Assembly (NCBI RefSeq): GCF_019670125.1
Contig: NZ_AP023033.1
Coordinates: forward strand, 1,911,001-1,975,000
Direction: 5' to 3'
Length of the DNA stretch: 64,000 nucleotides
Source: Agarivorans aestuarii
GTDB taxonomy: Bacteria > Pseudomonadota > Gammaproteobacteria > Enterobacterales > Celerinatantimonadaceae
Position numbers and translations under genes: made by a program. A model generated the notes under the pieces. It was given only the letters and a program-made list of their open reading frames with translations, was not told where the DNA came from and searched no databases. Positions 632-12,917 of the stretch are shown one piece after another (position 1 is the stretch's first letter; every line of letters starts with the position of its first letter).

Positions 632-1312
632 ATGAAATCATACAGTCTAGCAATGTTACTTAGTGGTGGTTGTTTACTGAGTGCGAACGTTCTCGCGACT
701 TCAGTAGACTTTCGCCATGAGTACAAAAGTGATACCAAGCAGCATGCTAGCCGAGTAAAGATGGCCCATACCTTTGAAAATAATTTCTCTATGGCTTTAG
801 AGCTTAAATTTAAAGGAGAAGAGGGCAAATTCATGGAAGACTTACAATCAAACGGATCTGAAATCGACCTTGGCTACCGCTATAAAATTAACGATCAATG
901 GGCGCTAATTCCTGGTATGCCTATAGAGTTTGGTCAATCCGGTGCTACCTACAAACCGCAGCTCCGATTAACCTACACCCCAGAAAAGGTAAAGGGATTG
1001 TCATTAAGTGGCCGTTACCGACTTGACGTAAAACCGGGAGAAGATATTAAGAAGTATCGCCATCGCTATACCGCCAACATTGGATATAAGTATCAGCAAT
1101 GGACCTTTGGTCTAGAGGGTAACTATTACTATTCCGACAATTCTGAATATCACCTCTATAACAATGGCCGAACTAATTATGAAAACAACTTTACCATTCA
1201 TTACAGCATGGGCAGTTGGACGCCGTGGTTAGAGTTTGGTGATGTTTCAATTTCCGATCAATCTAGCCAACGAGAGTTAAGAAGCCGCATAGGCCTACGC
1301 TATAACTTCTAA
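632..1312 (+). CDS. KdgM-family outer-membrane porin (probable oligoalginate channel)
   Basis: This 226-residue protein has a signal peptide (about residues 1-22, ending VLA) followed by the KdgM-family start SVDFRHEYKSD. Alternating beta-strand segments follow, and it ends RIGLRYNF with a terminal Phe, typical of outer-membrane barrels. KdgM porins are small monomeric channels first known for oligogalacturonates; relatives in alginate loci are thought to admit alginate oligomers. The neighbours (SDR, PL17 lyases, KdgK, KdgA) and the operator 30 nt upstream point to alginate rather than pectin. A second KdgM-like porin lies at 39935-40690. The family call is secure; the substrate is inferred. 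Confidence 0.85.
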   Translation: MKSYSLAMLLSGGCLLSANVLATSVDFRHEYKSDTKQHASRVKMAHTFENNFSMALELKFKGEEGKFMEDLQSNGSEIDLGYRYKINDQWALIPGMPIEFGQSGATYKPQLRLTYTPEKVKGLSLSGRYRLDVKPGEDIKKYRHRYTANIGYKYQQWTFGLEGNYYYSDNSEYHLYNNGRTNYENNFTIHYSMGSWTPWLEFGDVSISDQSSQRELRSRIGLRYNF

Positions 1313-1328
1313 AGTGTGATCTGCGCAT

Positions 1329-1370
1329 TTGTATTACAAATTATCAAGGTGTAATCTATTTGTATTACTA
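1329..1370 (+). promoter_or_regulatory. Two GntR-type operators before the SDR gene
   Basis: TTGTATTACAA at 1329-1339 is a perfect copy of the recurring palindrome. TTGTATTACTA at 1360-1370 has one mismatch. The centres are 31 bp apart, about three helical turns, so two dimers could bind the same face of the DNA. Both lie 52-94 nt upstream of the SDR start codon. This is the only unit in the window with two closely matching copies. Confidence 0.6.
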
Positions 1371-1422
1371 AAGAGGCCGTTGGCTCTCTAACATTACTTA
1401 ACCTTTAATTGAGAGTGTAGAT

Positions 1423-2178
1423 ATGTCTAATAAAGTTGCATTAATTACCGGAGCAACCGGTGGAATTGGTTTTCAAGTGGCAAAACGCTTAGGTGAAGAC
1501 GGCTATACCGTTGTTTTGAACGGTATCGAAGATGAAGCCGGCGCAGCACGCGTTGCTCAATTACAAGAATTAGGTATTGAAGCAGAATACTATAGCTTTG
1601 ACGTTACTGATGAAGTAGCTGTTACCAGCAACGTGACTAGAATTGGTGAAAAGTTTGGCAAAATTGACGTGCTGGTAAACAACGCCGGTGGCTTAGGCGG
1701 TCGTAGCCCAATGGAAGAAATGACCACGGAGTTCTACCGTTTTGTAATGGCCCTAAATTTAGATAGTGCATTCTTTGTATCGCGTGCTGCAATTCCATTC
1801 TTGAAGAAAGGTGAAAATGCTTCAATCATTAATTTCACCTCAAATGCAGGTTGGAATGCCGGTGGTCCGGGCGCAGGCATTTATGGTGTTTCAAAGGGTG
1901 CTGTACATACTTTAACTCGCGCTTTAGCCAAAGAGCTAGCGCCAGCGGGTATTCGTGTTAACGCAGTATCTCCTGGTACTATTGATACGCCATTCCACGC
2001 TCAAATTAAAGAGACGAAGCCTGAAGTATTTGCTTCATGGAAAGATAGCATTCTACTGGGTCGCTTAGGTCAGCCAGAAGAAGTTGCTTCTACAATTTCT
2101 TTCTTGGTCAGCAAAGATGCTTCATTCATCACAGCTGAAACAGTACAAATTGGTGGTGGACAAGCTTTAGGTATCTAA
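1423..2178 (+). CDS. Short-chain dehydrogenase/reductase, probable DEH reductase
   Basis: A classical SDR of 251 residues. The NAD(P)-binding motif TGATGGIG is at 9-16, NNAG at 86-89, the probable catalytic Ser at 140, and Tyr154-x3-Lys158 in YGVSKGA. The C-terminus GGGQALGI is also typical. In alginate catabolism, SDR enzymes such as Sphingomonas A1-R reduce 4-deoxy-L-erythro-5-hexoseulose uronate (DEH) to 2-keto-3-deoxygluconate (KDG). That would supply the substrate of the KdgK encoded at 13.4 kb. Two operators precede the gene and a strong terminator follows it, so it is probably monocistronic. The position makes DEH reductase the best guess; a KduD-like role is the alternative. Cofactor preference cannot be read with confidence. 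Confidence 0.8.
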   Translation: MSNKVALITGATGGIGFQVAKRLGEDGYTVVLNGIEDEAGAARVAQLQELGIEAEYYSFDVTDEVAVTSNVTRIGEKFGKIDVLVNNAGGLGGRSPMEEMTTEFYRFVMALNLDSAFFVSRAAIPFLKKGENASIINFTSNAGWNAGGPGAGIYGVSKGAVHTLTRALAKELAPAGIRVNAVSPGTIDTPFHAQIKETKPEVFASWKDSILLGRLGQPEEVASTISFLVSKDASFITAETVQIGGGQALGI

Positions 2179-2205
2179 TAGTTGCCTTTAGCGCCTTAAA
2201 AATAC

Positions 2206-2237
2206 AAAGCCACACTTAGTTTAAGTGTGGCTTTTTT
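2206..2237 (+). terminator. Terminator of the SDR gene
   Basis: AAGCCACACTTA (2207-2218) and TAAGTGTGGCTT (2222-2233) form a 12-bp stem with a GTT loop, followed by a T run. It lies 28 nt after the stop codon. Confidence 0.9.
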
Positions 2238-2373
2238 AATGTCTCACGATGTTCTTTTAGTCTTTTTTAAGCCAAAGGGCTAAGACTTTAGTATTTAAGT
2301 GTTACAAATATAGCGATCAAGCCTGCATTTGACGGCTTTTTTTGTATCTGGTCTACTACAAATCGAGTAGTAT

Positions 2374-2384
2374 TAGTCATACTA
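2374..2384. promoter_or_regulatory. Candidate autoregulatory GntR operator
   Basis: TAGTCATACTA fits TNGTNNNACNA and matches the window consensus TTGTA(A/T)TACAA at 8 of 11 positions. It is also the right half of a larger inverted repeat, TAGTAT-N5-ATACTA (2368-2384). It lies 80 nt before the regulator's start codon, as expected for autoregulation. Confidence 0.4.
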
Positions 2385-2397
2385 AATGTAGAATGAG

Positions 2398-2444
2398 TTG
2401 TGTTAGCAATGATAAATCTAGTGGATTGGTTATTGCTAACACAA
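2398..2444. repeat. 13-bp perfect inverted repeat upstream of the GntR gene
   Basis: TTGTGTTAGCAAT (2398-2410) is the exact reverse complement of ATTGCTAACACAA (2432-2444), with a 21-nt spacer. The arms are 34 bp apart centre to centre and end 20 nt before the ATG. They differ from the TTGTAWTACAA motif. They may be a pair of sites for another protein, or an RNA hairpin in the leader close to the ribosome binding site. Confidence 0.6.
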
Positions 2445-2464
2445 TATTTGATTAAGGTTATTTT

Positions 2465-3187
2465 ATGTCTAACGAATTTATGCAAATAGAAGGTGCGTCT
2501 CGCAGTCTTCATTTGCAAGTAGCGAGAGAGATCGCCCGTGGCATCTTGTCGGGAAGTTTGCCCCAGGGCAGCATTATTCCCGGTGAGCTAGATCTGTGCG
2601 AACAGTTTGGTGTTAGCCGCACTGCATTACGTGAAGCAATTAAATTGCTTAACTCTAAAGGCTTATTAGAGTCTCGCCCTAAAATTGGCACGCGAGTGCG
2701 CGACCGCGAATATTGGAACTTTTTAGATTCTCAATTACTCGATTGGATGATGGGCTTAAGCAATACTGAAAAATCCTACCAAGAGTTTTTGGCCTTGCGC
2801 AGAGCAATTGAACCCGAAGCCGCAGCTTTAGCAGCGCGAAATGCAAGTGCAGAACAGCGCATGAGTTTATCGGCTGTTTTCCAAAAGATGTCAGATGTTG
2901 CTGCTGGTGTAGACGACGTTAACTCATGGACAGACGTAGACATGGAGTTTCACCGTTTAGTATTTCTATCGACAGGTAATAGCTTTTATATTCCTTTTGC
3001 TAATGTTCTACGCACTATGTTTATTGGCTTTATTGACCACTCATCAAAAGAAGGTGGTACCTGTATAGATGAGCATAAAGCAATTTATGATGCCATTATG
3101 GCTGGTAATGCAGACAAAGCTCGTGAAGCCAACTTAGCGTTATTAAATAACAGCAATCACCGTTTACCTTCGGACACCGCTGCTTAA
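2465..3187 (+). CDS. GntR-family (FadR/FCD) transcriptional regulator
   Basis: This 240-residue protein has an N-terminal winged helix (about 12-78, with SRTALREAIKLLNSKGLLESR as the recognition region) and a C-terminal FCD ligand domain. Probable metal-ligand positions are Asp159, His163 (DMEFH), His204 (DEHKAIYDAI) and His232. FCD regulators usually sense a pathway acid and repress transport and catabolic genes. DEH or KDG is the likely effector here. The palindrome TTGTA(A/T)TACAA seen upstream of at least five units fits the operator rule of this subfamily, so I infer that this protein controls the alginate regulon. It is transcribed alone and closed by a terminator. Confidence 0.85.
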   Translation: MSNEFMQIEGASRSLHLQVAREIARGILSGSLPQGSIIPGELDLCEQFGVSRTALREAIKLLNSKGLLESRPKIGTRVRDREYWNFLDSQLLDWMMGLSNTEKSYQEFLALRRAIEPEAAALAARNASAEQRMSLSAVFQKMSDVAAGVDDVNSWTDVDMEFHRLVFLSTGNSFYIPFANVLRTMFIGFIDHSSKEGGTCIDEHKAIYDAIMAGNADKAREANLALLNNSNHRLPSDTAA

Positions 3188-3207
3188 TACACCTTACTGT
3201 TTCATTT

Positions 3208-3238
3208 AAAATGCCGACAATATGATTGTCGGCATTTT
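3208..3238 (+). terminator. Terminator of the GntR gene
   Basis: AAAATGCCGACAAT (3208-3221) pairs perfectly with ATTGTCGGCATTTT (3225-3238) across a 3-nt loop. It lies 20 nt after the stop codon. A-rich and T-rich flanks allow use on both strands. Confidence 0.85.
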
Positions 3239-3398
3239 AGTTTGTGCTTTTTATGTAGCACTTAGCTTTTCTCCATCTCTAACTTGCTCTCTAATTCCTC
3301 TTTAAACGAAATTCATGAATTTTATTTCATGCTTTCAAGAACTTATTTGTCTATAAAAGGACAAACTATAGAGATAGCGCGTAGTGAAAGGGAGAACA

Positions 3399-4100
3399 AT
3401 GCAACAACTTGCCGAGAATATTTGGATTGTAGAGGGGCCTAGTGTTCCTTTTTTAGGTTTACCTTATTCTACCCGCATGACCATTATTCGCCTCGATAAT
3501 CGTAAGCTGTGGATCCACAGCCCAATAGCGTTAAACGATAAGTTGTTAGCAAAAATCGCTTTGCTAGGAGAGGTTAAGTATTTGGTTGCGCCAAATCACC
3601 TGCATCATCTGTTTATTGAGCCCTGGCAACGACAGTTCCCCAATGCTCGCTTGTATGGTACCGAGCAACTAATTATTAAGCGTAATGACTTGGATTTTGA
3701 TGGCGCTTTAACCAACAACCCAAGTGAAGTTTGGCCTTGGCAAGAGCAGATTAAACAAGTGCTTTTTACCGGCTCTCCACTTATGCAGGAGTGCGTTTTT
3801 TACCACCCAATATCTGGTGTTTTAGTCGTAACAGATTTAGTTGAAAACTTTAACCTAAGTGGCTTTAATTGGTGGCAAAGAACGTTGGCTAAGCTAACTG
3901 GAATAGTGGCTCCAAACGGAAAAATGCCTTTGGATTGGCGACTGAGTTTTATGTTTGGCAAGGCAACTGCACGCCAGCATTTAAAGCTGATTCTCAGTTG
4001 GCAAGCAACTACCTTGGTGATGTCGCATGGTGACATTATCCAAGAAGATGCCACCAACTTTTTGCGGCAGTCTTTTGGTTGGTTAATCAAAGCTGAATAG
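3399..4100 (+). CDS. DUF4336 family protein (MBL-fold-like)
   Basis: A protein of 233 residues resembling the DUF4336 family, which has a fold related to metallo-beta-lactamases but an altered metal site. Visible features are the opening LAENIWIVEGPSV, the segment VAPNHLHHLFIEPWQRQFP (similar to the usual His-rich loop) and a late MSHGDII. The in-frame GTG at 3384 is possible, but the ATG at 3399 has a GGGAG ribosome site at good distance. No signal peptide is seen. It is not an obvious alginate gene and has no operator of the recurring type upstream. Function unknown. Confidence 0.65.
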   Translation: MQQLAENIWIVEGPSVPFLGLPYSTRMTIIRLDNRKLWIHSPIALNDKLLAKIALLGEVKYLVAPNHLHHLFIEPWQRQFPNARLYGTEQLIIKRNDLDFDGALTNNPSEVWPWQEQIKQVLFTGSPLMQECVFYHPISGVLVVTDLVENFNLSGFNWWQRTLAKLTGIVAPNGKMPLDWRLSFMFGKATARQHLKLILSWQATTLVMSHGDIIQEDATNFLRQSFGWLIKAE

Positions 4101-4117
4101 CTGACAAGAATAATAGG

Positions 4118-5737
4118 CTAGTTGTTGATGGCAAAGCCTATGCCTAAACTTTGATTATGTTTGTTGTAATCAATTAAGGATTCACCATAACCATTGAAAT
4201 ATTTTAGGTAAAGCGCCAACTCTTGGGAGATGCCGTAAGACCAGCGTAGATCTAAAGCGCCTTTATTGTCTTTCTTAAAGTTATTTCGTCCCAAAAAGCT
4301 TAAGCGATGACGTTCATTTACCTGCCAACTAGCCGTTAACTCTCCATAGCCATAGTAATCTTCCATGTTGGGGTTATCGTCTTCCGATTCATCTTCTTTG
4401 ATGCGATACCATGGTTTTAGCGCTACGCTAACGGGATCTGCATCAAAGCCAAACTCACCATATATGCGATTCCACGAACGCGAGCGGATTTGTGTTTGGC
4501 CGTTAGATTCATGCACTAAACCAAAACGCATCCATTCCGGCGACCAAGCTGAACGCTGTTCGGCACTGCTATTCCACTGATAGAAAAATTCAGGCTCATA
4601 ATTGGTTTCTCGGATAGAGTCACCGGAGCGTTCGTAAGGTTGCCAGAAAGTTTGCTGGGTGTAAGCAAAGCTCAAATTATCGCTGTCGGTAAATAAGGTG
4701 AAGGGAAGTGTGAGACGAAAACTAAACTGAAATTCTACTTCCATTTTTTCCGGTTGTTGACCGGGAACGCCTCCGGCTAAATCGGGAATGGCAGGCGAGG
4801 GGTTGTATTTGAACGGCAGAATATAGTTATCTCTAAACATACTCATGCCAGCAAAGGTCCATTGGCTGCTGGTTGACATCATTTCACGTCGGTCGCCGAT
4901 TCGATTAAGCGCAACACCTAGGCCAAAAGACTGGTTGTGGATGTTGTAGTCAAGCATTGACTCACCATAGCCATTAAAATACTTGGCGTAGAGAGAAAAT
5001 GCGGGGCTAATGCAATAAGAAAAGCGTAGATCTACAGCACCCTTATTGTCTGATTGCAGATTATTGCGACCCATTGCCGTGATGCGGTGGTTACATTGGT
5101 CATCACCAAATAGGTAGCCAAGGGTGAGTTCACCGTAGCCATAGTAATCGGTAAAATCACCGCCGTTATTCACTTCGGGTCCTACCGGGATCCAAGGTTT
5201 AAAGGTGATTAACCAGTCGTTGTAGGAGGTATCAAACTGGGCATAAATTCTCTCCCAGGAACGATCAAATTCACCGTAAGAGCCATTAGCTTGGTGGCTA
5301 AAACCAAGGCTTGCTGCGCGCAATAGCCAGCGGTTTTTGTCGATGCTAAATTGATCGGGGCGCCAAGTGTAAATGAGCTCTGGTTCGTAATTGGTATCAC
5401 GAAAAGGGGATGAGAAGGGTTTATTGTATACCTGCCAAAAGCTTTGTTGGGTATAGGCAATGCTAAAGTAGTCTCGCTCACTTAACAGGCTTTCAGCTAC
5501 GATGAGCTTGCCACTGATCTGAAATTCGGTTTCTAGGTTGTCGATACCTCTGCCATTTTCGGCTTCTTTGGTGGCCAATACCGAAGAGTAATCGCCTAAG
5601 CTTGGTGGATTAGGGTTGTATTTCCCTAGCAAAATATAGGTATCACGATAGGCAACTAATCTAGGACCACCGTCTTGCTCTGCCAAGCTAGTACTTGATA
5701 GCGATAGCAGCAAGATACTAAGTACTGTTTTCTTCAT
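4118..5737 (-). CDS. Tandem outer-membrane phospholipase A: two fused OMPLA barrels, first one degenerate
   Basis: This 539-residue protein has a signal peptide (1-19, SSTSLA) and two complete copies of the PldA/OMPLA sequence, about 23-280 and 296-539. Ordinary OMPLA is one 12-strand barrel of about 270-290 residues. Matching segments include RDTYILLGKYNP/RDNYILPFKYNP, AYTQQSFW/AYTQQTFW, YYGYGELT in both, and YFNGYGES in both. OMPLA uses a His-Ser-Asn triad in HxSNG...SRSWNR. Copy 2 keeps it (H409, S411, N423). Copy 1 reads HQANG...DRSWER, so the Ser is Ala150 and the Asn is Glu162. OMPLA normally works as a calcium-dependent homodimer, so this chain may be a built-in dimer with one active site. 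It has a good ribosome site (AGGGACGGA before ATG) and appears to be a single gene on the minus strand. Confidence 0.85.
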   Translation of the reverse strand: MKKTVLSILLLSLSSTSLAEQDGGPRLVAYRDTYILLGKYNPNPPSLGDYSSVLATKEAENGRGIDNLETEFQISGKLIVAESLLSERDYFSIAYTQQSFWQVYNKPFSSPFRDTNYEPELIYTWRPDQFSIDKNRWLLRAASLGFSHQANGSYGEFDRSWERIYAQFDTSYNDWLITFKPWIPVGPEVNNGGDFTDYYGYGELTLGYLFGDDQCNHRITAMGRNNLQSDNKGAVDLRFSYCISPAFSLYAKYFNGYGESMLDYNIHNQSFGLGVALNRIGDRREMMSTSSQWTFAGMSMFRDNYILPFKYNPSPAIPDLAGGVPGQQPEKMEVEFQFSFRLTLPFTLFTDSDNLSFAYTQQTFWQPYERSGDSIRETNYEPEFFYQWNSSAEQRSAWSPEWMRFGLVHESNGQTQIRSRSWNRIYGEFGFDADPVSVALKPWYRIKEDESEDDNPNMEDYYGYGELTASWQVNERHRLSFLGRNNFKKDNKGALDLRWSYGISQELALYLKYFNGYGESLIDYNKHNQSLGIGFAINN

Positions 5738-5916
5738 TCCGTCCCTGAAAATCTTTGTTAACTAGCAAGCTAGCGTTAGATCAATGATTTAACATTTTTA
5801 TGTTAGCGGGGAAAAGAAAAAGAAGCGAGTAAACCAAACAGAAAATACTTAAGCTTTAAGCCTATTGATATTGAAAAAGGACGCAGAAGCGCCCTTAAAT
5901 GTTAGTACTGGCTTGT

Positions 5917-6255
5917 TTAAGAAACGCTATAAGCGATAACAAAACCGAGCACTACGATTACTAAAGTAAAGGCGAATTGAATCGCTGTGGATAACAGGGC
6001 GAGTACAAAGCCTGCTACGGCGGTGGTTCTAAATACTAAAGAGAACAAAATGCTGGTTATTACTATTGCAACTAAGGTTGGGAAAAAACCTTCGCCAATG
6101 GCCAATTCGGTAAAAACACTGGCGGCTATGGCTGCAATTACAGCAACAAAGCAAACGTCTATTCCTGAACGCTCAATTTTGAGTACCTGAGTACCCAGTT
6201 TAATTGGCGCTAGCATTATTAATGTAAGTAGAGAAAGCGTTAATACTATCGTCAT
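5917..6255 (-). CDS. Small four-helix membrane protein, unknown function
   Basis: A 112-residue, very hydrophobic protein with about four membrane segments (roughly 1-20, 33-52, 58-77 and 84-108). A ribosome site (AAAGGA) sits just before the ATG. Charged residues are few: the KIERSGID loop and a single Glu in FTELAIGEG. I do not recognise the family. It stands alone between the phospholipase gene and the PL17 operon, with no alginate operator visible, so its link to the surrounding pathway is unknown. Confidence 0.6.
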   Translation of the reverse strand: MTIVLTLSLLTLIMLAPIKLGTQVLKIERSGIDVCFVAVIAAIAASVFTELAIGEGFFPTLVAIVITSILFSLVFRTTAVAGFVLALLSTAIQFAFTLVIVVLGFVIAYSVS

Positions 6256-6500
6256 TCCTTTAACCTCTATACGTTGATAACAGTCCTTGTTAATCGGTAA
6301 CCTACTGCAAATATCTTACTAATTAGGTATGGCAAAAGAGTAAGCCAAGCGATGTTTCTACACCATTCCCCATTTGGGTTAAATTACTTGTTTGTTAATT
6401 AATCAAAGCCTGCAAGCTTGACTAGCCAGGGGATAACGACAGATGAAGATTTTGTTACAGCTGAGTTGGTTAATTATGTTTTGAGCTTTTAGTGAAGCAA

Positions 6501-6527
6501 CAAAAAAGCCCCGCATAGCGAGGCTTT
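6501..6527 (-). terminator. Terminator of the PL17 operon
   Basis: Read on the minus strand, AAAGCCTCGC-TAT-GCGGGGCTTT forms a 10-bp stem with one mismatch and runs into TTTTG. It ends 17 nt after the stop codon of the downstream PL17 gene. Confidence 0.8.
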
Positions 6528-6543
6528 GTAGGAAGCGAAGAAA

Positions 6544-8691
6544 TTAAGCTATGTGAACAGCGCCACTCCAGCGTAGGATTTCTCCATTAACTTCTAATTG
6601 ATGCTGAGTTTCTGGTTTCACGTTTGCCTGGTTAGAAATACACACGGTAATTTGTTTTCCAGACACCAAATGAATTGCTACAGCTGACGCCACTTTGTTG
6701 TGAGCCAATACTTCAACTGACACCACTTGGCCGCGTGCTTCGGTACTTGCTTCAATGGCTTCATTAAAGTAGCCATGAGTTTCGAACACGTTGGCAAACA
6801 AGTGATCTTTAGCTTGCTGGCGTAGCAATAATACTGGTTCGCTACGTAAGTTGAAATCTGGATCGTTAGCACCGGTGCGCGCCATAATCACTTGGCTATT
6901 CGCTACCGCAGAACTCACCATCGAGTAATAGCTATTACCTTGTAACCAAGTGATTAAGCTTGAGCCATCAACTTCAGCAGTTGCTTGGTGCCACAGGTGC
7001 TGGTAACCATGGCTTTCACCAAGTGGTTTAAGGCGAGCGTTGCATTCGTAGTTAAAATCGCTGCGAATAAACTGGCCAGAATAGTGTATTGCGTAGTCAT
7101 AGTTATGCTCTTGCTCACTCACTAGGCGGAATAAATCCAGGACTAATGGCTTAGCAAAACCTTCCACTTCAAACATGATTACACTGCGCTGTTGGTCTAC
7201 GCCAGGGTAGTAGTTACGCACAAACGCACTCATTGCTTGTAGCTTGTTGTCACCACTTACAAAGAAGTGTTGTTCGCCCCATTTTTCTTCAGCAGTGGCA
7301 GTATTACCTTGGTTTTGGCTTTGGTAATCCACTACTACTGTGTTGTGAGCAATGGTTTGCTTAGCGTAGCTTTTGTTTTCTGGAATATAGCGACCACCAA
7401 ACTTAGGCTCTATATTTACCCAGCGACCGAAGCCGTAATCATGCAAAACTTCTTGGCCACGGTTGAATAGGTTGAAGTGCAAGCCATCAAAGTGGCCGTG
7501 GTCTAATGCTGAATGTAGCTTGTGGTCACTACCATGTTGGCCAAACCATAACAGCGCCATGCTGTCATCTTGCTGAGCATCTCGGTGTCGTAATATAGCT
7601 ACGCCACCGCGGTCGCCTTCGGCGCCATCTGTTAAAACTAAGCTGCCCCAGTTAAAGCCACCAATGCTTGCTGCGTTTTCGCTAGCATCCGATAAGCTGG
7701 CTCCAGAGCCATGTACCCAAACTTTGGCTTGGTGTTTAGCCATGGCCACTAAGTTGGCGTCACGTAGGTAACGGCTAAAGCACATGCTAGTGGCAATTAA
7801 GATACCTTCGTCTTTAATGTCCATGGATTTAGATGAATCATTAAGCGCTGGTAATACACCATTTGGAAAGGCAGTGGCCATTACTGCGTAAGTAGTGGTT
7901 TTAATCACCTGGTCTTTGAGTTGGTAAATACCAATCTCTGGTTGGCGACGCTCAATGGCTTCGGCAAACAAGAAAATTGGACGCAAGGAAAAGCGATGAT
8001 AGTAAGGGCCTTCCATGTAGTAACCGTCTGGTGAGAATAGCTGAGTGAGCTGGGCAATAAAGCCGCCGCTCACGCTATCACCTTTAAGGCCATACAGGGC
8101 TTTGTCTACACTGGCTTGGTCTTGAATTGCGTAACCACAAATACCAACACCTGCTACCGCCCACAAACCGTGGTTATGCACAATGTCAAAGTCGTGGGCA
8201 TATACATCAACAAACAGCTCAATCATTAATTTGAATAAATCGTTTTCGATTAGTTGCTGCTCGTCTTCTGCCAGTTTATGACGAATACAAGAATAAGCAC
8301 ACGAGGCATACAGCATCCACATGTTTTCATTCAATGTTTGGTGGAATAAGCGCCCCGGTGGGTTGGTGTCTCGGCTAGTGTTTAGCTCTAAAGTAGGGTA
8401 CACCTTGGCGTATTCAACCAGCATGCTACGTGCGTAATCTAGGTAGCGTTGGTCTTCAGTAATTAAGTATAAGCGGCCGGCTAAGTCCAAGTGGATATAG
8501 TTTTGCTTGTGGCGATTATGCTCGTAACCGCCGGCTTCACCGTGGCCGGGGATCTCAATGCCCAAAGGCATGTAAGCTTCAAGCGCTGCCACTTCGGCTG
8601 CGATAGACTGACCCATTAGAGAATCAGTATTTAAGTGCTTGGCCAGTTCTTTTGCTTCTTCAAAGCTTATCAATAATGGTTGGTAAGTCAT
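6544..8691 (-). CDS. PL17 oligoalginate lyase, second gene of the operon
   Basis: An exolytic alginate lyase that would release unsaturated monouronates from alginate oligomers. From the chosen ATG at 8691 it has 715 residues. The N-terminal alpha-toroid carries HNHGLWA (Asn173, His174) and YYMEGPYYHRF (Tyr230). The His-to-Tyr spacing of 56 equals that of the Alg17C catalytic residues His202 and Tyr258. The C-terminal half is a heparinase II/III-like beta domain with GHFDGL and FGRWVNIEPKFGGRY. The ATG lies 2 nt after the stop of the upstream PL17 gene, whose end supplies the ribosome site, so translation is probably coupled. A longer reading frame would overlap the neighbour. No signal peptide is seen, so it should act in the cytoplasm. 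Relative to its paralogue it has an extra stretch around SDHKLHSALD before the HGHF motif. Confidence 0.9.
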   Translation of the reverse strand: MTYQPLLISFEEAKELAKHLNTDSLMGQSIAAEVAALEAYMPLGIEIPGHGEAGGYEHNRHKQNYIHLDLAGRLYLITEDQRYLDYARSMLVEYAKVYPTLELNTSRDTNPPGRLFHQTLNENMWMLYASCAYSCIRHKLAEDEQQLIENDLFKLMIELFVDVYAHDFDIVHNHGLWAVAGVGICGYAIQDQASVDKALYGLKGDSVSGGFIAQLTQLFSPDGYYMEGPYYHRFSLRPIFLFAEAIERRQPEIGIYQLKDQVIKTTTYAVMATAFPNGVLPALNDSSKSMDIKDEGILIATSMCFSRYLRDANLVAMAKHQAKVWVHGSGASLSDASENAASIGGFNWGSLVLTDGAEGDRGGVAILRHRDAQQDDSMALLWFGQHGSDHKLHSALDHGHFDGLHFNLFNRGQEVLHDYGFGRWVNIEPKFGGRYIPENKSYAKQTIAHNTVVVDYQSQNQGNTATAEEKWGEQHFFVSGDNKLQAMSAFVRNYYPGVDQQRSVIMFEVEGFAKPLVLDLFRLVSEQEHNYDYAIHYSGQFIRSDFNYECNARLKPLGESHGYQHLWHQATAEVDGSSLITWLQGNSYYSMVSSAVANSQVIMARTGANDPDFNLRSEPVLLLRQQAKDHLFANVFETHGYFNEAIEASTEARGQVVSVEVLAHNKVASAVAIHLVSGKQITVCISNQANVKPETQHQLEVNGEILRWSGAVHIA

Positions 8692-8693
8692 GA

Positions 8694-10832
8694 TTAACCT
8701 CGGTTCTTTTCTAAAGCCAGAGATCCCTGCCAGCAATAAGTTTGTTGATTGAATTCTATACTGTGCTGGGTGTCAGCACTTACATTGCGTTGGTTACTAA
8801 TCATTACAGTGAAGTTGATGCCGTCACCGATTATTTGCACTACGCTGCCGACGTCGTTACTTACTAGTACGCTTAGTTGGCTTACTTTGCCACGTGCGTT
8901 AGTACTGGCTTCGATGGCTTCATTAAAGTAACCATGGGTTTCTAATACGTTAGCAAACACCGTTGATTTTGCTTGGCGACGCAAGATAAAGCTGGTTTCA
9001 CTACGCAAGTTAAACTCTGGGTCATTGGCACCAACGCGGGTGAAGAATAGCTCGTCGCTTGTTTCACTGGCACTAATCCAAGAATAGTAACTATTGCCTT
9101 GCAGCCAACTTACTAAGTTGTTCTCAGAGGCTTTGCCTTGTGCTTCGTTCCACAAATGTTGGTAACCAAAGTTGTTACCCATTGGCGCGAGCTCATTGTG
9201 CATTTGATAGTCACTGGTGCACCGCACAATTTGCCCTTGGTATTGCAGGGCGTAGTCATAACTATGTTCGGTGTCACTGCTTAAACGGAATACATCCAAT
9301 AATAGTGGTGCGTCTAATGTGTCATCATTAATCAATACCAAACTACGTTGTTGGTCTACACCCGGGTAGAAATCATCGGCAAAGGCACTTACCGCTTGTA
9401 GGTCTGCATTTTGGTCTGCAAAGAAGTGGGGGATACCGTGTTTGCTATCAGCCAGTTCTACATCAAAGTTGTTTTGACAAGATTGGTCTACCGCAACCGC
9501 ATTATGAGCAACGGTTTGACGTGCGTAAGATTTGTTTTCATCTAAATAGCGACCACCAAACTTAGGTTCTATATTTACCCAGCGGCCAAAACCGTACTCT
9601 TTTAGTACCTCTTGTCCACGGTTGAAGAAGCTAATGCCTAAGGTGTCGAAGTGACCATGGCCCATGCCGTGTTGGCCATAGTTCATCACCAGTTGGCTAA
9701 CGTCACCATCTTTGCTTTGCATGCGAACAAAGCCTTGAGCGCCTCGGTCACCCTTAGGGCCTTCATTTAACTCAACGCTAGGCCAGTGAGGAAGGGCAGT
9801 GTTAGTTGATTCTTGATAGGCTTTTGATAGCGCGCTACCACAGCCATGTAACCAAACTTGCTGCTGGATTTTGGCCATGCCAAGCAGTTTATCGTCGTGG
9901 CCGTAGTGTTTGTAAGCCAAGCTTACTGCTACTACTACGCCTTGATCTTTGATGTCCATGCTTAATGACGCATCGTTTAACGCAGGGAATACGCCGTTCG
10001 GGTAGGCGGTCGCTAACAAGGCTTTAATGGTTTTGCCAATCACTTGGTCTTTGTAGTTAAAGATGTCCAACTCTGGGCGGTGGCGATGTAATACTTCAGC
10101 AAACAAACACAAAGGGCGAATCGCATAGCGATGGTAGTAGGGGCCTTCCATGTAGTAGCCTGAAGGAGCGAACAACTGGCTAATTTGGGCTAAGAAGCCA
10201 CCAGTTACGTCATCGCCTTTTATCCCATGTACCGACATGTCTACATATTGTGGTTTGCCTATGGCAAGGCCGCAAATACCTACGGCCGCTACCGCCCACA
10301 AACCATGGTTGTGGATCCGGTCAAAGTCGAAGCCATATTTATCGGTAAACATATCTAGCATAGGTTGGAATAACTGACCTTCGATATGCTTCACTTGTTC
10401 TTCGCTTAACCAGTGCTTAATGCAGCTATAGCCTAAGCTGGCATATAATAGCCAAACATGCTCGTTGAGGATTTGGTGGAACAAGCGACCTGGTGGATTA
10501 GTATTTCGCTGGATATGGAAACCAAAGCCCAAGTACTTATCAGCATACTCACTTAATATATCTGCAGTGTATTGCGCGTATTGCTCATCGTCAGTGATTA
10601 AGAACAGGCGGCCAGCTTGGTTAATGTATTGATAGTTCTGCTTGTGACGGTTGTGCTCATATCCACCCGCTTCACCATGACCTGGCACTTCAATCGGATT
10701 AGCCATATAAGCCTGAGTGTCGCTAATCATCTTGTCTAAACTTAAGCCCATCAAGCTATCATTGTTAAGCTGCTGGCTAATTTCAGTAATTTCCTGCTGA
10801 TTTAGTAACACTGCATTTAATTTCGCAAGCAT
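8694..10832 (-). CDS. PL17 oligoalginate lyase, first gene of the operon
   Basis: A paralogue of the downstream gene, 712 residues from the ATG at 10832. That ATG has a GAGG ribosome site 6 nt upstream; two earlier in-frame ATGs at 10853 and 10844 lack one. Catalytic-region residues are Asn175, His176 (HNHGLWA) and Tyr232 (MEGPYYHR). The C-terminal domain has GMGHGHFDTLGISF and FGRWVNIEPKFGGRYLDENKSYA. No signal peptide is present. The two enzymes share long identical blocks but differ enough to suggest old duplication and possibly different preference for mannuronate or guluronate ends. An operator and a CRP-like site lie upstream. Confidence 0.9.
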   Translation of the reverse strand: MLAKLNAVLLNQQEITEISQQLNNDSLMGLSLDKMISDTQAYMANPIEVPGHGEAGGYEHNRHKQNYQYINQAGRLFLITDDEQYAQYTADILSEYADKYLGFGFHIQRNTNPPGRLFHQILNEHVWLLYASLGYSCIKHWLSEEQVKHIEGQLFQPMLDMFTDKYGFDFDRIHNHGLWAVAAVGICGLAIGKPQYVDMSVHGIKGDDVTGGFLAQISQLFAPSGYYMEGPYYHRYAIRPLCLFAEVLHRHRPELDIFNYKDQVIGKTIKALLATAYPNGVFPALNDASLSMDIKDQGVVVAVSLAYKHYGHDDKLLGMAKIQQQVWLHGCGSALSKAYQESTNTALPHWPSVELNEGPKGDRGAQGFVRMQSKDGDVSQLVMNYGQHGMGHGHFDTLGISFFNRGQEVLKEYGFGRWVNIEPKFGGRYLDENKSYARQTVAHNAVAVDQSCQNNFDVELADSKHGIPHFFADQNADLQAVSAFADDFYPGVDQQRSLVLINDDTLDAPLLLDVFRLSSDTEHSYDYALQYQGQIVRCTSDYQMHNELAPMGNNFGYQHLWNEAQGKASENNLVSWLQGNSYYSWISASETSDELFFTRVGANDPEFNLRSETSFILRRQAKSTVFANVLETHGYFNEAIEASTNARGKVSQLSVLVSNDVGSVVQIIGDGINFTVMISNQRNVSADTQHSIEFNQQTYCWQGSLALEKNRG

Positions 10833-10865
10833 TTGAAACCTCATACATATCAATTTATTGCTATA

Positions 10866-10925
10866 AAGTAATACAAATAAGTGTTGAATTCAGCTTGATC
10901 AAGTAAAACAGTGAACTTACTCACA
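10866..10925 (-). promoter_or_regulatory. GntR-type operator and CRP-like site before the PL17 operon
   Basis: AAGTAATACAA (10866-10876) matches the recurring palindrome at 9 of 11 positions and ends 34 nt before the chosen ATG. AGTGAACTTACTCACA (10910-10925) matches the CRP core TGTGA-N6-TCACA at 9 of 10 positions, centred about 85 nt upstream of the ATG. Together they suggest glucose-sensitive activation with substrate-relieved repression. Confidence 0.5.
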
Positions 10926-11039
10926 TTATATATTTTTCCTTTTAATGGTTAGCAGACCAAGCTGAGTAGTGGCCTAGGTCTAGCAATTCCCCGCATTTCC
11001 TGCCTGAATAATAATCAAAACAAACTAAGCAAAAAATAA

Positions 11040-11084
11040 TTGGATCTTCATCACACATAAAGTGTTTTTGTATTACAATATAAT
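11040..11084 (+). promoter_or_regulatory. CRP-like site, operator and -10 box of the symporter-kdgFKA operon
   Basis: TATAAT at 11079-11084 is a perfect -10 box, but no -35 box is present 17 nt upstream. TTGTATTACAA at 11068-11078 abuts it, so a bound repressor would block polymerase. TTGGATCTTCATCACA (11040-11055) matches the CRP core at 8 of 10. It is centred about 43 nt before the expected start near 11091, close to the class II position, which would explain the missing -35 box. Confidence 0.5.
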
Positions 11085-11150
11085 TTAATTGTTTTACACT
11101 GAACGGGATTTAAATTTCACACACTTAACTTTTGACCTTCAGAGGCGGCT

Positions 11151-12917
11151 ATGAGTATTGATATCGTTGTTGTACTAGCCTACTTCGTATTTTTAATTGC
11201 GATAGGTTGGATGTTTCGTACTTTTACATCTTCCACCAGTGACTACTTTAGAGGCGGCGGTAAAATGCTGTGGTGGATGGTAGGTGCGACAGCATTTATG
11301 ACTCAATTTTCAGCATGGACCTTTACTGGAGCAGCAGGGAAAGCATTTAGCGACGGTTTTGCCATCGTTATCTTGTTCTTAGCCAACGCGTTTGGCTACT
11401 TTATGAATTACATTTATTTCGCTCCGAAGTTTCGACAACTTCGCGTAGTTACCGCAATCGAAGCGATTAAAAAACGTTTCGGCCGTACCTCTGAGCAATT
11501 TTTTACTTGGCTAGGCATGCCCGACAGTTTGATTTCTGCCGGTGTATGGTTAAACGGTTTGGCAATTTTTGTTGCCGCTGTTTTCAACATTCCTATGGAA
11601 ACCACCATTATTTTCACCGGTGTAGTATTGGTGATAATGGCCGTAACCGGTGGTTCTTGGGCGGTTGTTGCGTCTGATTTCATGCAAATGCTAGTGATTA
11701 TGGCGGTAACCATTACCTGTGCCATTGCCGCTTACTTCCATGGCGGAGGCTTAACTAACATTATTGGTAACTTCCATGGCGACTTTGTGATGGGCAGTAA
11801 CCTTAACTATGTAAGCATTTTCTTATTGTGGATTGTATTCATCTTTGTGAAGCAATTCGGGGTAATGAACAACAGCATTAACGCATACCGTTACCTTTGC
11901 GCAAAAGACAGTGACAATGCACGAAAAGCGGCTGGTTTAGCCTGTGTATTGATGATTGTTGGTCCGCTTATTTGGTTCTTACCACCTTGGTATGTAAATG
12001 CCTTTATGCCTGATTTTGCGGAAGCTTATAGCACCGTAGGTGGCAGCGATGCAGCCTACTTAGCCTTTGTTCAAAACGTAATGCCAGCAGGTATGGTGGG
12101 TTTGTTAATGTCGGCAATGTTTGCCGCTACGATGAGTTCTATGGACTCTGGCCTTAACCGCAACGCCGGTATCTTTATTCGCAACTTCTACTCGCCAATT
12201 GTTCGTAAAGAAGCAGCCAGCGAAAAAGAGCTTATTGTTGCCAGTAAAGCAGCCACGATATTTATGGGCTTAGTTATTATCTCGATTGGCCTATTTATTA
12301 ACTCGCTACGCCATTTAAGTCTTTTCGACATTGTACTAAATATTGGCGCCTTAATTGGCTTCCCAATGTTAATTCCAGTGCTATTGGGTATGTGGATCCG
12401 CAATACGCCAGATTGGGCCGGTTGGGGAACACTCGTCGTGGGAGGTGTGGTGTCTTACGTATTTGGTATCGCCTTAACTTCCAACGACATTCAAAACTGG
12501 TTTGGCTTAGAGCAAGCGCTAACTGGTCGTGAATGGGCTGACTTGAAAGTAGGACTTAGCCTAGCTGCACACGTGATATTTACCGGTGGCTTCTTTATTG
12601 GCTCAACCTTGTTCTTTAAAGGGCGTACGCCAGAGCGTGAAGCTGAAGTAGCTGAGCTGTTCCGCGATTGGAATACTCCAGTACATGCAAACACTGAAGA
12701 GCAACACAACCTAGATACTAAACAGCGTTCAATGTTGGGTAACCTAATTAGTGTTGCTGGTTTCGGCATCATCACCATGGCATTGATTCCAAATGACATT
12801 TCCGGTCGAGCACTGTTTGTTCTGTGCGGAACCATAGTATTGGTAGCCGGGATCTTGTTGGTACAAGCAGCCAGAAAACCCAATAAAAGCTTACAAACAG
12901 AAGCGATAACGGAATAA
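11151..12917 (+). CDS. Sodium:solute symporter (SSS family), probable uronate/oligouronate importer
   Basis: A 588-residue inner-membrane protein with about 13-14 hydrophobic segments. It has the SSS-type start (short periplasmic N-terminus, then TSSTSDYFRGGGKMLWWMVGATAFMTQFSAWTF) and the conserved SAMFAATMSSMDSGLNRNAGI region. Related SSS proteins in Vibrio alginate loci (ToaA/ToaB) import alginate-derived monomers or oligomers. It is the first gene of an operon with kdgF, kdgK and kdgA. A GC-rich hairpin (12934-12958) separates it from kdgF. The operator at 11068 controls it. The family is certain; the exact substrate is inferred from the operon. Confidence 0.85.
   Translation: MSIDIVVVLAYFVFLIAIGWMFRTFTSSTSDYFRGGGKMLWWMVGATAFMTQFSAWTFTGAAGKAFSDGFAIVILFLANAFGYFMNYIYFAPKFRQLRVVTAIEAIKKRFGRTSEQFFTWLGMPDSLISAGVWLNGLAIFVAAVFNIPMETTIIFTGVVLVIMAVTGGSWAVVASDFMQMLVIMAVTITCAIAAYFHGGGLTNIIGNFHGDFVMGSNLNYVSIFLLWIVFIFVKQFGVMNNSINAYRYLCAKDSDNARKAAGLACVLMIVGPLIWFLPPWYVNAFMPDFAEAYSTVGGSDAAYLAFVQNVMPAGMVGLLMSAMFAATMSSMDSGLNRNAGIFIRNFYSPIVRKEAASEKELIVASKAATIFMGLVIISIGLFINSLRHLSLFDIVLNIGALIGFPMLIPVLLGMWIRNTPDWAGWGTLVVGGVVSYVFGIALTSNDIQNWFGLEQALTGREWADLKVGLSLAAHVIFTGGFFIGSTLFFKGRTPEREAEVAELFRDWNTPVHANTEEQHNLDTKQRSMLGNLISVAGFGIITMALIPNDISGRALFVLCGTIVLVAGILLVQAARKPNKSLQTEAITE

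Follow-up and report, generated by a model that had tools for sequence, protein, structure and literature searches.

A tandem PldA gene of Agarivorans and the putative single-chain pseudo-heterodimer of OMPLA that it encodes

A gene of the marine bacterium Agarivorans aestuarii carries two complete OMPLA (PldA) barrel domains in one reading frame, and the two domains have lost different parts of the active-site region. The amino-terminal copy is without the catalytic nucleophile, and the carboxy-terminal copy, whose catalytic face is intact, is without the loop around Ser106. Judged from these sequences, the gene probably encodes a single-chain pseudo-heterodimer of OMPLA, with copy 2 as the catalytic unit and copy 1 as its dedicated partner. 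We also lean, less firmly, towards a stricter reading, whereby the product would be an obligate pseudo-heterodimer in which a pseudoenzyme barrel gives its calcium-site loop in trans to a catalytic barrel, and thus a natural two-barrel, single-chain outer-membrane enzyme. We know of no earlier natural enzyme of this kind. The window referred to below is the whole stretch of DNA that was analysed, 64,000 nucleotides of the A. aestuarii genome, and all features of the gene are on its minus strand.

The tandem gene and its product

The open frame (4118..5737) starts with an ATG at 5737 and stops at 4118, and is translated without interruption into 539 amino acids. A Pfam profile search detects PF02253 twice in this protein, which bears out the preliminary description of a single gene with two full PldA repeats. 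Searched apart, as that description had proposed, each half matches on its own; positions 4898-5671 code for the half that scores 229 bits and positions 4121-4885 for the half that scores 278 bits, where the curated cut-off is 27 bits. Beyond the two halves, no PF02253 match is present in the genome (one 4.69-Mb contig searched). OMPLA/PldA proteins are characterized by one barrel domain per chain, and here two domains share one frame in seven of seven genomes of the genus.

From the open frame and its translation, the order is signal peptide, copy 1, linker and copy 2. The likely signal peptide (residues 1-22, 5672..5737) was recognized by eye; it begins MKK and is likely cleaved near A19. 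Copy 1 (residues 23-279, 4901..5671) is a complete PF02253 barrel domain without the nucleophile but with the S106-S-P-F-R loop retained. In the alignment of the seven species, the linker (residues 280-296, 4850..4900) begins with IGDxRE in every one. Copy 2 (residues 297-539, 4121..4849) is again a complete PF02253 barrel domain, where the catalytic face is intact and the S106-x-P-F loop is gone.

Might the fused pair adopt a fold different from two 12-stranded OMPLA barrels, such as a single 24-stranded barrel? There is a precedent, as an engineered duplication of OmpX reportedly gave a larger pore. Each half, however, matches the PF02253 profile to its last position (257 of 257), and when compared with PDB entries by sequence, each matches only four distinct OMPLA or phospholipase A1 sequences, the known OMPLA structures being matched over 221 residues by copy 1 and over 211 by copy 2. 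In addition, the catalytic surface of copy 2 is preserved, which a rearranged barrel would not demand. A different fold is thus very improbable.

The carboxy-terminal end differs from that of single PldAs. The fused proteins end in NN in five species and in NQ in two (window 4118-4160, minus strand), whereas Leu, Phe or Tyr is the final residue in 93 of 106 single PldAs; the last strand of the fused proteins is therefore without its usual terminal residue. If the two-barrel reading is true, how does BAM handle two complete barrels in one polypeptide, the second of which does not have the usual terminal Leu or aromatic residue?

Two cysteines are found in every copy 1 of the seven species (Cys215 and Cys242 in the window's protein; 5012..5095), and none in any of the seven copies 2. 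By eye, both are in short turns. No single PldA of the 106 has Cys at both of these columns and two have it at the first, although two cysteines occur somewhere in 41 of the 106. A disulfide between Cys215 and Cys242 is possible.

An alginate-use cluster is situated around the tandem gene (window 632-12917). It contains two adjacent oligoalginate-lyase-like genes, which score 523 and 516 bits (the NCBIfam cut-off is 1400) and have 51-52% cross-identity with their counterparts in other species, as well as a KdgM porin and a sodium/solute-symporter-like gene; an SDR enzyme and a GntR regulator were recognized by eye. A conserved gene partner was considered and rejected, as the alginate-cluster neighbours accompany the gene in the window and in only four of the other six genomes. 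The lyases are missing from the 16 kb read in each of two genomes (G002 and G005), where a GntR relative and the transporter, respectively, are found near the tandem gene.

Distribution and origin of the fusion

In each of the seven Agarivorans genomes searched, a single frame of 545-550 codons contains both PF02253 domains. A sequencing or assembly error joining two genes, which the preliminary description had named as a possible refutation, is ruled out by this recurrence. Agarivorans sp. Toyoura001, the one named relative found, is matched over residues 1-538, and the identity in the best segment is 86%. Elsewhere in the family, one of five genomes has a PldA, and it is single-domain.

How far does the fusion extend? 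The survey of related genomes was made with draws from the order, the class and the phylum, which overlap and sample a larger collection. In the order draw, PF02253 is present in 163 of 295 genomes, and with the fused protein as the query, 162 of 295 match. Among the matches listed, which are in E-value order, seven genomes of the 295 have a match across both halves; these seven come first and all are Agarivorans. Another 17 genomes of the order with at least two PF02253 matches were searched again (22 handles in all), and no frame with two whole domains was found in them. One genome (G150) has two partial PF02253 matches inside one 400-residue frame. In the class draw, 80 of 369 genomes match at 1e-20, and both halves are spanned in one of the 369, the window's own. 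The phylum draw yields matches in 103 of 398 genomes; the pair is in one frame in two, both Agarivorans, and the remaining 101 of the 103 are without such a frame. Matches are also present in 63 plasmid records, and in the 20 listed, each match is shorter than 800 bases, equivalent to one domain. The survey that had been suggested at the outset thus confines the fusion to Agarivorans within these three draws, and fusions outside the genus are possible. No description of a tandem or fused PldA was found in titles and abstract openings, in a body of literature lacking most subscription journals.

A side observation concerns a genome of another family (G109), where a partial PldA match is situated about 2.4 kb from a complete copy (contig 124, 94791-98487). 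The complete copy, L068, branches inside the PldAs of family f6.

How did the two halves originate? In the tree, each copy forms its own branch (100/100), and the copies are sisters (100/99). Four single PldAs, one of them from the same family, branch closest to the fused pair (94/86). The tree bootstrap had not settled and both copies are on long stems, that of copy 1 (0.82) being about twice that of copy 2 (0.40). Separate origins of the halves were considered and are disfavoured by the joining of the copies as sisters, although the alternative is not formally rejected: a tree in which copy 2 is moved beside the four nearest singles, without copy 1, loses 27 log-likelihood units and has a p-AU of 0.09. 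A duplication inside the gene, followed by specialization before the radiation of the genus, is the likely origin as read from these sequences. The tandem protein of G002 (L053) is placed differently by its two halves, copy 1 beside G006 and copy 2 at the base of its clade; this discordance may represent either an exchange between genomes or a long-branch artefact.

Residues lost and kept in the two copies

The residue comparisons are from an alignment of the 14 halves, E. coli PldA and 106 distinct single PldAs, with positions in E. coli mature numbering. The singles are the best-scoring search loci and constitute an uneven sample; a weak locus (L088) was omitted, and sequences with identical last 260 residues were counted once.

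His142 is present in all halves and in all singles. Ser144, found in all 106 singles, is kept in the seven copies 2 and is Ala in the seven copies 1. Ser152 (104/106 singles) is likewise kept in every copy 2 and is Asp in every copy 1. Asn156 (100/106) is kept in every copy 2 but in only one copy 1, where the position is Glu in five species, Asn in one and Asp in one. The His142-Ser144-Asn156 triad is therefore complete in seven of seven copies 2 and, with Ala at 144, absent from copy 1. In the window's protein, the dead catalytic region of copy 1 comprises H148, A150, D158 and E162 (5252..5296), and in copy 2 the triad H409-S411-N423 is found together with S419 (4469..4513; E. coli 142, 144, 156 and 152), all four being the same in the seven species. 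The preliminary description had given H148, A150 and E162 for copy 1 and H409, S411 and N423 for copy 2, and these residues are correct; the alignment maps them onto E. coli H142, S144 and N156. Its remark that Glu stands in place of Asn in copy 1 holds for the window's protein but is not general, as the variation at position 156 indicates.

The pattern at the S-x-P-F loop is the reverse. Among the singles, Ser106 is present in 106 of 106, the Pro in 103 and the Phe in 104. Copy 1 has the S106-x-P-F loop in all seven species; Ser106 is found in one copy 2 of seven (Gly in five, Val in one), and Pro108 and Phe109 in none. The loop of copy 1 in the window's protein, S109-S-P-F112 (5402..5413; E. 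coli 106-109), is the one proposed to be donated to copy 2, which according to the alignment has G372-D373-S374-I375 in its place (4613..4624). As copy 2 has one residue fewer in this loop, the alignment is ambiguous there, and the G002 protein still has Ser at column 106, with other serines nearby. Together with Asp373, which is invariant in copy 2, these features are where the proposed division of labour is weakest.

A wider comparison can be made with the 42 near-invariant columns, i.e. those conserved in at least 93% of the singles, where a residue is considered lost if kept in fewer than four of the seven species; as the species are related, their losses do not count as independent. Ten of the 42 are missing from copy 1 (111, 144, 152, 156, 178, 183, 185, 186, 230 and 250), and seven of these fall in 139-158 and 176-190. 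Two of the ten are conservative (E111D and I250L). The loop at 183-186 is altered in copy 1, and the loop at 106-110 is retained. Copy 2 has lost five of the 42 (106, 108, 109, 187 and 230), three of them at 106-109. The copy 2 change D187N also occurs in two of the four singles closest to this copy and may be older than the fusion, and position 230 is changed in seven of seven copies 1 and six of seven copies 2.

Have both halves perhaps left phospholipase chemistry and taken on another function? The whole chain, the one PldA scored, gives 330.2 bits against the NCBIfam phospholipase A equivalog (NF008031), below its cut-off of 369. Yet copy 2 retains H142, S144, S152, N156, D184 and N185 in all seven species, and another function appears improbable.

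The pattern of variation among the seven species mirrors that of the losses. In the loop region 99-110, one of 12 columns is variable in copy 1 vs six of 12 in copy 2; in region 139-158, nine of 20 are variable in copy 1 vs five of 20 in copy 2. The compared windows were chosen on functional grounds after the sequences had been seen, and in a full enumeration of non-overlapping window pairs of those sizes, a contrast this strong occurs in 96 of 41412 (0.2%); four alternative window choices give 0.2, 0.9, 1.4 and 2.0%. Over the whole barrels, the copies are equally variable (90 of 234 columns in copy 1, 91 of 234 in copy 2). The median dN/dS is 0.025 for copy 1 (three of 21 pairs usable) and 0.038 for copy 2 (six of 21), the remaining pairs being without a usable dS. 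Both halves are under purifying selection. This bears on the notion of a decaying duplication, where copy 1 would be a pseudo-domain in the process of being lost, as the ten missing near-invariant residues and the twofold stem length might indicate. But copy 1 is in frame in seven of seven species, at identities down to 72% with the window's copy 1, and it is as constrained as copy 2 both in dN/dS and in the number of variable columns. Decay is the least probable of the readings considered here.

Residues at the dimer interface present a mixed picture. We take Y92, Q94 and Y114, as well as positions 25, 26, 28, 32, 71, 73 and 265, to be interface positions of the OMPLA dimer. The first three are present in both halves in all seven species, and the others are as variable in the halves as in the singles; position 73 is Gly in seven of seven copies 1, as it is in one of 106 singles. 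With this variation and the Gly73 of copy 1, the interface is not simply preserved. G139 and Y159, reported in PMC5542473 as a folding pair of OMPLA, are present in both halves.

A further reading is that copy 1 represents a structural or regulatory appendage, e.g. for holding lipid, membrane anchoring or forming a pore, and that copy 2 functions alone or with the copy 2 of another chain. The loss of the loop would then be tolerated drift, compensated within copy 2. Asp373 is invariant in the seven copies 2 and could replace a calcium ligand; it might have taken over from the lost Ser106. Positions 108 and 109 do occasionally vary in single PldAs (three and two of 106, respectively), and the two invariant cysteines and Gly73 of copy 1 are signs of a specialization of its own. 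The conservation of Ser106 is difficult to reconcile with this, as it is invariant in the singles and in copy 1, which has no use for it in cis, and the loop is near-frozen in copy 1 while drifting in copy 2. An appendage is therefore unlikely, though it deserves more weight than another fold, another function or decay.

Position 152 also varies rarely in the singles (two of 106). The two proteins concerned, L087 (G168) and L109 (G363), both have S152E, and they are two of the three singles without Pro108, with Tyr and Phe there. A coupling between the loop and Ser152 is thus faintly hinted at.

A composite site and its relation to known OMPLA systems

In the E. coli dimer, Ser152 and Arg147 of the catalytic subunit bind the active-site calcium together with Ser106 of the partner, the last through either its side chain or its backbone. 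No statement on the calcium ligands of OMPLA was found in the literature searched. On that arrangement, with copy 2 catalysing and copy 1 assisting, copy 2 alone would need the triad and Ser152, and copy 1 alone the Ser106 loop; these are the elements that survive. The complementary losses would thus leave one composite site whole and the mirror-image site broken from both sides. The preliminary description had suggested a tethered dimer with one dead half; the tethering and the dead half fit the evidence, but only half of the pattern had been seen, as the loss of the Ser106 loop from copy 2 was missed. With the loop lost in the catalytic half and kept in the dead one, the dead half would appear to be a required partner rather than a relic. 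As that description further suggested, the lipase may be always-ready or calcium-tuned, or the dead half may hold substrate.

The pseudo-heterodimer might have come about as follows. An intragenic duplication before the radiation of the genus would have joined two PldA barrels head to tail through a linker of about 20 residues, which by simple length is long enough to reach a neighbouring barrel. The halves would then have specialized. Copy 2, at the C-terminal end, would carry out hydrolysis with its His-Ser-Asn triad and Ser152, and the non-catalytic copy 1, at the N-terminal end, would present its Ser106 loop across the interface and complete the calcium and oxyanion site of copy 2. By analogy with the E. 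coli subunits, we propose that the two barrels pair face to face, whether inside a single chain or by a swap with a second one. We infer that copy 1 donates its loop in trans and that the fused enzyme is active. With the partner in the same chain, activation would proceed without the meeting of two monomers and without a concentration-dependent step, leaving control to calcium and to the access of substrate.

What would such a fusion signify? If the reading is true, the reversible dimerization by which OMPLA is often believed to be kept silent has been removed in nature, and the fusion shows if cells tolerate a phospholipase that is permanently joined to its partner. As each half is without the other's share of the active site, the gene also allows residues acting in cis to be told apart, on evolutionary grounds, from those acting in trans. 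One-site kinetics are possible too, as no more than one site per chain is whole. OMPLA is well studied, and in three papers its activity is linked to dimerization and calcium (PMC5043575, PMC10153742, PMC7617971), but they present regulation differently. OMPLA is called a constitutive dimer in one (PMC7617971), and in another a dormant monomer is mentioned as having been suggested, basal activity without calcium is seen, and calcium contributes little to dimer stability (PMC10153742). As the papers disagree on how OMPLA is regulated, the effect of the fusion on regulation is uncertain.

Comparison with known systems places the Agarivorans protein close to OMPLA in its parts and apart from it in their arrangement. 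E. coli PldA has one barrel per chain and functions as a homodimer with two equal sites; here there are two unequal barrel domains per chain and at most one whole site. Like each half, E. coli OMPLA/PldA (PDB 1QD6, 1QD5 and others) has a full PF02253 domain, and PDB 7EZZ is a further Phospholipase A1 entry. The triad given for E. coli OMPLA, His142-Ser144-Asn156 (PMC5043575), is retained by copy 2. Among the four nearest singles is L015, a PldA from a different genus in the family (genome G010), which has one domain in a 339-amino-acid frame, with Ser106, Ser144, Ser152 and Asn156 all present. An engineered covalent OMPLA dimer is reportedly a laboratory construct, with a disulfide between two identical barrels. 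Judged by its title (Kingma and Egmond, 2002, cited in PMC7617971), it is similar in that the barrels are covalently held, but the barrels of Agarivorans have diverged and are naturally fused in one chain.
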